The position numbers and the translations under genes were made by a program. Of a DNA stretch of 64,000 nt, positions 32,677 through 36,374 are shown piece by piece. Below the pieces are notes generated by a model. It was not told where the DNA came from, did no database searches, and saw nothing but the letters and a program-made list of their open reading frames with translations. Positions within the stretch are counted from its first letter, which is position 1. The number at the start of each line of letters is the position of its first letter. Source of the DNA: an uncultured Luminiphilus sp. (GTDB lineage: Bacteria; Pseudomonadota; Gammaproteobacteria; Pseudomonadales; Halieaceae); assembly GCA_905182485.1 (NCBI GenBank), contig CAJJBO010000003.1, positions 183,579 to 247,578 on the forward strand. The letters are read 5' to 3'.

Positions 32677-33783
32677 ATGAAGTTATTCAAACGTCGCGCC
32701 AAGACTGAGTCTGGGTCTCAACCCAAGGATCAGGAAGTCGTGGTGGACGAGCAGCCCTCAGAGGCGGCCGCAGTGCCGGTAGCGCAGCAGCAGGGGCTAG
32801 CAGCCAGCGGCCCCTCGGTTGCTGCGGATGATCGCGAAGCGGTGCTGCCTGCCAAGTCTGCAGAGCCCGGCATGTTTGAGCGGTTACGAGCAGGGCTAGG
32901 CCGCAGTCGCAGCCAGCTATCAGAGGGCTTGGCCAGTCTGGTTTTGGGGAAAAAGCAGCTTGATCCGGCTTTGATGGAGGCGCTTGAAGAGCAGTTGATT
33001 ATGGCTGATCTGGGCCTTGAGACATCAGCGCGCGTTCTTGAGCTTTTGCGTCAGCGTCTTGATCGGAAATCGCTGTCTGCGACGGAAACGGTCATGTCCG
33101 CATTAAAAGCGACCCTCGTGGAATTGCTGATTGATCAAGAACTCCCTCTAAAAACAGAGGGCCATCGTCCCTTTGTGATCCTGGTCGTGGGGGTCAACGG
33201 CGCGGGGAAAACAACAACCATTGGCAAGCTGGCCCATCGATACCAGCAGGAGGGCCGCAGTGTGATGCTAGCTGCGGGTGACACTTTCCGGGCCGCAGCG
33301 GTTGAGCAGCTCGAGGCCTGGGGTCAGCGACACGATGTTCCCGTGGTTGCGCAGCACACGGGTGCCGACAGTGCATCGGTGCTCTACGATGCACTGCAAG
33401 CGGCGACCGCAAGAGGGGTTGATGTTTTGATTGCGGATACGGCGGGCCGCTTACAGAATAAATCCCATCTTATGGATGAGTTGGCAAAAGTGGTCAGGGT
33501 CATGCGTAAGCAAAATCCTGCGGTGCCACACGAAACACTCTTGGTGTTGGATGCGGGAACGGGTCAGAACGCGGTTTCGCAGGCGCTAGAATTCGACCAG
33601 ACCGTTGGTATTACAGGGGTTGCCGTGACAAAGCTGGATGGCACTGCCAGAGGCGGGGTGCTGTTTGCGATCGCGAACAAACTGAAGCGTCCGATTCGTT
33701 TCATTGGTATCGGCGAGAAAGCGGAGGATTTGCGGGACTTTTCGGCTCAAGATTTCGTTGATGGATTGCTAGATGATCAGTAG
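32677..33783 (+). CDS. ftsY: Signal recognition particle receptor FtsY
   Basis: VVGVNGAGKTTTIGKLAHRYQQEGRSVMLAAGDTFRAAAVEQL. Confidence 0.96.
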   Translation: MKLFKRRAKTESGSQPKDQEVVVDEQPSEAAAVPVAQQQGLAASGPSVAADDREAVLPAKSAEPGMFERLRAGLGRSRSQLSEGLASLVLGKKQLDPALMEALEEQLIMADLGLETSARVLELLRQRLDRKSLSATETVMSALKATLVELLIDQELPLKTEGHRPFVILVVGVNGAGKTTTIGKLAHRYQQEGRSVMLAAGDTFRAAAVEQLEAWGQRHDVPVVAQHTGADSASVLYDALQAATARGVDVLIADTAGRLQNKSHLMDELAKVVRVMRKQNPAVPHETLLVLDAGTGQNAVSQALEFDQTVGITGVAVTKLDGTARGGVLFAIANKLKRPIRFIGIGEKAEDLRDFSAQDFVDGLLDDQ

Positions 33784-33798
33784 CGGCGGGCAGTGCTG

Positions 33799-34461
33799 AT
33801 GATTGAATTTGACCGTGTCAGCCGTCGGTTTGGGCAACAAGACGCACTGCGCAATCTGAATTTACAGATCGATGACGGTGAAATGGCGCTGCTAACCGGC
33901 CATTCTGGGGCTGGTAAAAGCACGTTATTGCGCCTTTTGTTGTTACTGGATAGACCCACCGGCGGTCAGATTCTCGTCGATGGGCAATCTACCAAGCAGA
34001 TTCAGGGGAATGCGGTAGGGCATTATCGGCGTCGGTTCGGCGTGGTATTTCAAGAGCACCGACTACTCTTCGACCGCAACGTTCGTGACAATATTGCCTT
34101 ACCTCTTGAAATTGCTGGATTTTCTCCCCATGACGCGAATCGGAGAGTGCGGGCGGCCCTAGACAAGGTGGGGCTGTTAGCGAAGGAGCGAGCGGACCCA
34201 AATGGGCTCTCCGGCGGGGAGCAACAACGGGTAGCGATTGCGCGCGCGGTCGTGGCGCGACCAGAGTTTTTGATTGCAGATGAGCCCACAGGGAACCTCG
34301 ATCCAGCGCTCTCTGCAGAAATCATGACGCTGTTTGAAGCCTTTAACCAAGTGGGGGTCACCGTGTTGGTGGCGACGCATGACCTGTCATTGATTGCGCG
34401 ATCGCGTCATCGGCTGATGACGCTTGCAGCGGGACAATTAATGCAGACCGAGGTAGCGTGA
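33799..34461 (+). CDS. ftsE: Cell division ATP-binding protein FtsE
   Basis: MIEFDRVSRRFGQQDALRNLNLQIDDGEMALLTGHSGAGKSTLLRLLLLLDRPTGGQILV. Confidence 0.95.
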   Translation: MIEFDRVSRRFGQQDALRNLNLQIDDGEMALLTGHSGAGKSTLLRLLLLLDRPTGGQILVDGQSTKQIQGNAVGHYRRRFGVVFQEHRLLFDRNVRDNIALPLEIAGFSPHDANRRVRAALDKVGLLAKERADPNGLSGGEQQRVAIARAVVARPEFLIADEPTGNLDPALSAEIMTLFEAFNQVGVTVLVATHDLSLIARSRHRLMTLAAGQLMQTEVA

Positions 34462-35420
34462 CGCAGCCGCTAAAACGAGAGCAGGGGCATTGGGGCGCTT
34501 GGGCGGCTTGGCGTGCACAGCACCGTGCCGCCGCTAGCAATAGTTGGCAGAAATTGGCTGTTCAACCCGTTGTGACGTCTGTCACGTGGTTGGTGATTGC
34601 CATTTCATTGGCATTACCCAGTACGCTGTTGCTCACCCTAGATAACCTGAGTGCCGTCGCGGGGGGAGTGGACCGATCTCCCCAATTATCGGTGTTGTTA
34701 ACCGGCGATAGTGAGTTGCCGGTGGCCGAACAATTACAGCGCACCTTGAAGAGCTGGCCAGAGATTGATGATGTTGTGCTGCTGGATCGAGAGCTGGCCT
34801 TGTCTCAGTTTATTCAGCAGACCGAATTGGCGACAGTTGTGGGGTCGCTGGCACGCAACCCGTTACCCCATACGTTAATTGTGATGCCGGGGCCCGCCTT
34901 GTCGGCGGCCGCGATGACTGAGTTGGGTCAGCGGGTGCAGACGCTGTCAGGTGTTGATCGAGTGATCGTGGATACACGCTGGGTCGCGCGCTTAGAGACC
35001 GCACTGCAGGCGGGATGGCGTTGGGTGCTGGGTTTAGGCGCGGTGATGCTGATGGGCGCGGTGCTGCTGTTGGGCAATACCTTGCGTTTGGCGATCGAGG
35101 CCCGCAAAGACGAAATTTTGGTGGTGCACCTTATTGGTGGTTCACCAGCATTCGCACGAAGGCCCTTTTTGTACCTAGGTCTGTGGTACGGCGTAGGCGG
35201 CGGCATGGTTGCTGCGCTATTGCTAATGGTCATGACCTGGTGGATGACCGGGCCAGTGAACACGCTATTCTTGTTGTACGAGAGCCCTCAAACAATGCGC
35301 GTTCCAGGCGCGTTTTACCCGATGAGTTTGACTGTGTTGGGTGGATCTCTCGGGTTATTGAGTGCTCGGCTGGCCGCAGGGCGTTATGTTCGGCAATTGG
35401 TATCGCTGGCCTCCTCGTAA
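34458..35420 (+). CDS. ftsX: Cell division protein FtsX
   Basis: Follows ftsE with overlap; four-TM architecture; VHLIGGSPAFARRPFLYLGLWYGVGGG. Confidence 0.93.
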   Translation: MTQPLKREQGHWGAWAAWRAQHRAAASNSWQKLAVQPVVTSVTWLVIAISLALPSTLLLTLDNLSAVAGGVDRSPQLSVLLTGDSELPVAEQLQRTLKSWPEIDDVVLLDRELALSQFIQQTELATVVGSLARNPLPHTLIVMPGPALSAAAMTELGQRVQTLSGVDRVIVDTRWVARLETALQAGWRWVLGLGAVMLMGAVLLLGNTLRLAIEARKDEILVVHLIGGSPAFARRPFLYLGLWYGVGGGMVAALLLMVMTWWMTGPVNTLFLLYESPQTMRVPGAFYPMSLTVLGGSLGLLSARLAAGRYVRQLVSLASS

Positions 35421-35439
35421 AATCGGTAATTTTTTGGGT

Positions 35440-35466
35440 TTAGCACTCTCGGGGTGAGAGTGCTAA
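35440..35466. promoter_or_regulatory. CIRCE element (HrcA operator) upstream of rpoH
   Basis: Exact TTAGCACTC (35440-35448) - TCGGGGTGA - GAGTGCTAA (35458-35466); symmetry extends to TTTAGCACTCTC ggggt GAGAGTGCTAAA; overlaps a possible extended -10 TGCTAAAAT (35461-35469). Confidence 0.92.
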
Positions 35467-35498
35467 AATACGGCCACGAGCTTACAGGAGGCCAGGAA

Positions 35499-36374
35499 AT
35501 GACTGAGACAAAGCGAGCATTAGCTGTGCCCAACAGCGCCGTACTGAATATGGCGCCAGGCGCCAATTTGTCAGCGTACGTGCAGGCCGTCAGTGGCATT
35601 GCATTGCTGTCTCCGGAGCGCGAGAAAGCATTGGCCGAGCGGCTTTTTTATGAGGAATGCGTTGACTCTGCGAGAGAGTTAGTACTTGCTCACCTGCGGT
35701 TTGTGGTGCATATCGCGCGCAGCTATTCTGGCTATGGTCTTGCCGAGGCGGATCTGATTCAGGAGGGTAACGTCGGCTTGATGAAGGCGGTTAAGCGTTT
35801 TGATCCGACCAAGGGCGTCCGGCTTGTATCCTTCGCGGTGCACTGGATCAAAGCAGAGATGCATGAATATATTTTGCGTAACTGGCGCATCGTCAAGGTG
35901 GCAACGACCAAGGCCCAGCGTAAGTTATTTTTCAATCTGCGCAGCCAGAAGAAAACCCTTGATTGGCTCTCTGCTGAGGAAACACGTGCGATTGCGGCTG
36001 ATTTAGGGGTTGATGTGACTGAAGTCACGCGCATGGAAGGCCGTCTAACCAGTCGTGATGTGGCATTTGATGCGCCAACAGACAGTGATGATGAGGACAC
36101 GTGGCAGGCCCCGCAGCATTTTCTGAAAGACGAACAAGCGGACCCCGGTCAGCTCGTCGAGGCTGCAGAGTTTGCTGAGGACGGCTCGGCTCGGCTTCAT
36201 GTGGCGCTAACGGATCTCGATGGCCGCAGCCGAGATATTTTAGAACGACGCTGGTTGGTCGACGATAAGGCGACACTGCATGAACTGGCCGCCGAATATG
36301 ACGTGTCGGCGGAGCGGATTCGGCAGCTGGAAGCCAATGCATTGAAGAAACTGCGCACCGCACTGGTCGCGTAA
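35499..36374 (+). CDS. rpoH: RNA polymerase heat-shock sigma factor sigma-32
   Basis: MTETKRALAVPNSAVL...LIQEGNVGLMKAVKRFDPTKGVRLVSFAVHWIKAEMHEYILRNWRIVKVATTKAQRKLFFNLR; Q(R/K)KLFFNLR is the RpoH-box region; follows ftsYEX. Confidence 0.97.
   Translation: MTETKRALAVPNSAVLNMAPGANLSAYVQAVSGIALLSPEREKALAERLFYEECVDSARELVLAHLRFVVHIARSYSGYGLAEADLIQEGNVGLMKAVKRFDPTKGVRLVSFAVHWIKAEMHEYILRNWRIVKVATTKAQRKLFFNLRSQKKTLDWLSAEETRAIAADLGVDVTEVTRMEGRLTSRDVAFDAPTDSDDEDTWQAPQHFLKDEQADPGQLVEAAEFAEDGSARLHVALTDLDGRSRDILERRWLVDDKATLHELAAEYDVSAERIRQLEANALKKLRTALVA

Follow-up and report, generated by a model that had tools for sequence, protein, structure and literature searches.

A perfect CIRCE operator overlaps the predicted promoter of rpoH in Luminiphilus and accompanies hrcA across the Gammaproteobacteria

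The usual teaching on heat shock treats HrcA and sigma32 as alternative or parallel systems. The presence of a perfect HrcA operator (CIRCE) directly in front of rpoH, the gene for sigma32, raises the question of whether one of these systems could command the other. This was studied in a 64-kb stretch of DNA from an uncultured marine Luminiphilus sp. (the window, meaning the whole stretch analysed), where the operator lies within the gene order ftsY-ftsE-ftsX-rpoH, with the following features:

32677-33783, + strand: ftsY, an SRP54-type GTPase with an SRP54_N domain (domain match)
33793-34461, + strand: ftsE (TIGR02673 above cut-off)
34458-35420, + strand: ftsX (TIGR00439 at 247 bits, just below the cut-off of 255; Pfam FtsX above cut-off)
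35439-35467, no strand: full dyad, with perfect 12-bp arms at 35439-35450 and 35456-35467 and a 5-nt loop (direct reading of the sequence)
35440-35466, + strand: CIRCE operator core, 0 mismatches, conserved in 74/80 relatives
35486-35491, + strand: Shine-Dalgarno AGGAGG, 7 nt 5' of the rpoH ATG (direct reading of the sequence)
35499-36374, + strand: rpoH, heat-shock sigma factor sigma32, 291 aa (TIGR02392 above cut-off)

The product of rpoH scored 380 bits against the TIGR02392 equivalog, over the cut-off of 323.1, and is thus a member of the RpoH (sigma32) family. An alternative GTG start at 35454, inside the operator, was ruled out, since the AGGAGG serves the ATG at 35499. The operator, TTAGCACTCTCGGGGTGAGAGTGCTAA, has the form TTAGCACTC-N9-GAGTGCTAA with 0 mismatches, and the stop of ftsX at 35420 and the ATG of rpoH leave a gap of 78 bp that contains it, in such a way that the preliminary description was right about the perfect match, its position, the 12-bp reach of its arms and its place in the gap. 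It is the sole match with up to 3 mismatches in the window, where 100 shuffles gave an expectation of 0. This expectation, together with the class-wide conservation reported below, rules out a chance origin, and the probability that we leave to a fortuitous similarity is practically nil.

A promoter scan of the window found TTAGCA-N18-TAAAAT with an extended TG coinciding with the CIRCE, at the same spot where the preliminary description had proposed an overlap with an extended -10. Its elements are:

35440-35445, + strand: predicted sigma70 -35 TTAGCA, in the left CIRCE arm (promoter scan)
35461-35469, + strand: predicted extended -10 TGC-TAAAAT, formed by the right CIRCE arm plus AAT (promoter scan)
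35476, + strand: predicted transcription start, around 7 nt past the -10 (placed by the spacing rule)

The pattern TGnTANNNT with a -35 around 18 bp upstream is conserved in relatives, and the T at 35469 was unchanged in 75/75 aligned sequences. As the operator is symmetric, its mirror image provides a built-in control for promoter-like asymmetry. Class-wide, TANNNT was found on the rpoH side in 88% of 111 rpoH sites, against 8% on the mirror side. The commonest arm change, A3 to G, converts TTAGCA into TTGGCA, nearer to the -35 consensus and the commonest left-arm variant in relatives, and it occurred 32 times in the left arm against twice at the mirrored place of the right arm. These two asymmetries support that each arm has a promoter duty besides its repressor duty. 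The CIRCE upstream of groES in Luminiphilus looks different: it is followed by AAAA, with no -10, and a sigma32 promoter (CTTGAAA-N13-CCCCAT) lies 6-7 bp downstream of it, so that the CIRCE of rpoH is a distinct, specialised architecture.

The site is also kept in relatives, a check that the preliminary description had proposed. Judged by RpoH, the window is closest among named genomes to Luminiphilus MAGs of the Halieaceae (e.g., CALKEI010000044, 89% identity). Among 80 rpoH loci from the genomes of named relatives, 74 carry the CIRCE with at most 1 mismatch over the 18 arm positions, five of the six exceptions being more distant species and the sixth a locus (L075) with no more than 22 bp 5' of the gene. 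The whole 27-bp operator is identical in the nearest relatives (G004, G012, G013 and G023). Column information is near 2.0 bits in the arms, below 0.9 in most spacer columns and mostly below 0.5 in the downstream flanks.

Such a repeat could act instead as RNA: transcripts derived from ftsYEX would carry it in the rpoH leader as a hairpin, with a role as attenuator, thermosensor or stabiliser. In favour of this, folding predicts a strong 12-bp hairpin (z = -2.7), and no terminator was detected in the ftsX-rpoH gap. However, the hairpin is upstream of the predicted start and would be missing from the main transcript, and no U run follows it. Moreover, the exact letters of the HrcA consensus are conserved while the spacer varies freely, the most frequent arm change makes for a better -35, and the hairpin is gone in most hrcA-less genomes, which an RNA role does not predict. 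A role as RNA was rejected on the position of the predicted start and the conservation at DNA level, and we consider it very improbable.

An operator of this kind calls for its repressor. The preliminary description had taken the presence of hrcA in the genome as decisive, and on this point the outcome was mixed, as a profile search found no HrcA match in the source assembly (2.17 Mb in 42 contigs, around 70% complete), whereas nearly all genomes of the genus have the gene (34/36 other same-genus genomes, counting full or partial matches over the cut-off). The four genomes with the identical operator are among the carriers, the match being partial in G013. In the complete relative G006 the gene order is hrcA-grpE-dnaK-dnaJ, and its HrcA matches the solved HrcA structure 1stz and shows the C-terminal domain PF01628 far above the cut-off, with the DNA-binding domain just below it. 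When the 12-kb hrcA-grpE-dnaK-dnaJ region of G006 was compared with the source genome, only two short weak matches were obtained. Since this assembly also lacks dnaK and grpE, which are essential, incompleteness is the best explanation for not finding hrcA.

The absence of hrcA from the assembly would also fit a loss of the gene from the source species, the operator being a remnant. A relic would be expected to decay, as in the hrcA-less genomes G037 and G045 described below, but the operator of the window has no mismatch, the CIRCE in front of groES is perfect as well, and the missing DNA takes in dnaK and grpE too, in such a way that we give this explanation hardly any weight.

With regard to other CIRCE sites, which the preliminary description had suggested looking for, the source genome has exactly two CIRCEs within a limit of 3 mismatches, that of rpoH and one in front of groES (G000:C12), the latter accompanied by a sigma32 promoter. 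A CIRCE was also sought at the Luminiphilus hrcA-grpE-dnaK-dnaJ cluster, where the best site had at least 5 mismatches. Two genes of this cluster have sigma32 promoters in relatives, CTTGAAA-N13-CCCCAT for grpE and CTTGAAA-N13-ACCCAT for dnaK. In one such cluster (L297, 6149-8776), a near-perfect sigma32 promoter precedes grpE and another precedes dnaK, whereas hrcA lacks both a CIRCE and a clear sigma32 promoter.

Taken from sequence, these data make it very likely that the element works as an HrcA operator and forms one physical unit with the promoter of rpoH, and that HrcA, by repressing rpoH and groESL, ranks over the sigma32 regulon. We infer binding and repression at rpoH from the operator itself; as the CIRCE arms are the -35 and the extended -10, bound HrcA would have to exclude RNA polymerase. 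In Bacillus, GroEL supports the activity of HrcA, and by analogy with this HrcA-GroE mechanism a similar feedback may operate here. Without stress, GroEL would keep HrcA active and HrcA would hold rpoH and groESL down; misfolded proteins occupying GroEL, or heat inactivating HrcA, would release both. The new sigma32 would then transcribe its own regulon, grpE and dnaK and also groESL, until the increasing GroEL re-activates HrcA. Control by HrcA would be direct on rpoH, and both direct and through sigma32 on groESL. Transcription of rpoH might also start at fts promoters further upstream, which HrcA would leave unblocked.

It could be argued that HrcA binds here with a local or minor role, the level of sigma32 being set mainly by translation and stability and derepression of rpoH changing the regulon little. 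In E. coli, sigma32 is indeed controlled mostly post-transcriptionally, and the RpoH of the window keeps in its translation the RpoH-box residues QRKLFFNLR. The evidence on the other side comes from the whole class, where the near-invariance of the operator and its loss together with hrcA, as detailed next, imply sustained selection, and leads us to see a merely local role as rather unlikely.

To follow the link between repressor and operator, hrcA was scored and rpoH was located in 146 genomes of Gammaproteobacteria spread over families, and a CIRCE with up to 3 mismatches was sought in the approximately 400 bp upstream of rpoH. The CIRCE was present in 105/111 genomes with hrcA against 6/35 without it (Fisher p ~6e-19, an ancestry-blind value that, like the other p-value given here, overstates independence because the genomes share ancestry), and in 0/146 shuffled sequences. 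Within the order of the window the figures were 6/6 against 2/15 (p = 0.0005). The idea of the preliminary description, which left open how widespread the arrangement is, is thus supported by a strong association, and the result goes beyond its view: a CIRCE at rpoH is the rule in HrcA-bearing Gammaproteobacteria. Some of the six apparently hrcA-less genomes that retain the CIRCE may carry hrcA in unassembled DNA. Six of the 111 hrcA-bearing genomes have no CIRCE with the 9-bp spacing at rpoH. G154 (L184), which has hrcA and was scored as CIRCE-less, apparently keeps the same -10 together with a variant CIRCE whose spacer measures 8 bp, CTGGCGCTC-N8-GAGTGCTAA. In two hrcA-less genomes of the order of the window, G037 (L319) and G045 (L316), CIRCE-like remnants with 5 and 7 mismatches, respectively, stand next to an intact sigmaE -35, possible snapshots of the decay of the operator following repressor loss.

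This sigmaE -35 belongs to a further layer of the element, one that the preliminary description could not have seen. In the Halieaceae alignment GGAACTTTT is conserved 5' of the CIRCE, and GGAACTT (at least 6/7 matches) begins 14-17 bp before it in 56/72 sequences (window included) and 15-17 bp before it in 58/111 class-wide sites, whereas it was absent at those positions from all shuffled sequences. With TCTAA or TCTCA at CIRCE positions 8-12 and a spacer of 15-17 bp, GGAACTT would form a sigmaE-type promoter, the -10 of which falls within the CIRCE in most relatives. Most relatives have its elements intact, and the window copy does not:

35425-35451, + strand: decayed sigmaE-type promoter, GGTAATT (35425-35431) and TCTCG (35447-35451) (alignment of relatives)

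The decay of the -35 is shared by the closest clade (L040-L053), which still encodes RpoE and RseA, while other Halieaceae keep GGAACTT; the lineage of the window seems to have lost the input from envelope stress but retained that from HrcA. The rpoE match of the window genome (G000:C15:25716-26261) contains one in-frame TAG, either a sequencing error or a real inactivation, and the gene is intact in most relatives. Precedents make a sigmaE function plausible for the promoter of the relatives, as the rpoH P3 promoter of E. coli is sigmaE-dependent (PMC8103513) and the Bordetella fam/rpoH promoter is transcribed by SigE in vitro (PMC3490749). Both have, as most relatives do, a sigmaE-type promoter immediately upstream of rpoH; unlike in them, the sigmaE -10 lies inside the CIRCE in HrcA-bearing lineages, and the -35 is decayed in the clade of the window. 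An E. coli control genome gave no HrcA match.

Regulation by HrcA through CIRCE at groESL and dnaK operons, as in Bacillus subtilis and many others, uses the same 9-9-9 palindrome at a heat-shock promoter, and groESL, a target in Bacillus-type systems, is likewise a predicted one in Luminiphilus. In contrast to these systems, the target here is the sigma32 gene, with the operator arms as -35 and -10, and the Luminiphilus hrcA-grpE-dnaK genes have no CIRCE, unlike Bacillus-type dnaK operons. The work of Permina and Gelfand in 2003 is said to be the main comparative study of gamma- and betaproteobacterial HrcA regulons, and some of these sites may already appear in it; we found no description of a class-wide rule or of embedded promoters in the literature, and HrcA is not mentioned in the regulon paper of Leyn et al. 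2016. The only report of a CIRCE at rpoH that we found is that on Geobacter sulfurreducens, with a predicted site at position -51 (PMC545781, Table 8, 2004). According to that report, groESL is the only constant HrcA target, and the G. sulfurreducens site is, as here, a perfect CIRCE directly upstream of rpoH. It differs in that it is a prediction for a deltaproteobacterium, one genome among those studied, and in that hrcA-grpE-dnaK-dnaJ is also under CIRCE, unlike in Luminiphilus; in the passages on it neither a promoter overlap nor a class-wide pattern is described. RpoH and HrcA of Agrobacterium act differentially and independently, to go by the title of a study cited in PMC11764788 (ref. 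65). This alphaproteobacterium also has both systems in one cell and groESL under both, although that title presents the two as parallel, whereas here HrcA would sit above sigma32.

One heat-shock control system thus probably commands the other in much of the Gammaproteobacteria. Whether the sigma32 regulon has HrcA as its master switch in nearly all HrcA-bearing members of the class, through one compact element in which sigma70 and sigmaE promoters and the CIRCE share bases, with the post-transcriptional control of sigma32 in E. coli derived after HrcA loss, is a wider proposal for which we see even chances. Should control of rpoH by HrcA hold for most Gammaproteobacteria that bear the repressor, HrcA and sigma32 would form a hierarchy with GroEL as the sensor, and E. 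coli-type organisms would show what remains after the repressor is lost. This is a specific prediction about one 27-bp operator and one deletion, and any cultured strain with HrcA would serve to test it.

Two rpoH genes were detected in three genomes (G039, G087 and G215), and in G039 the first copy carries the CIRCE and the second (L325) lacks it.
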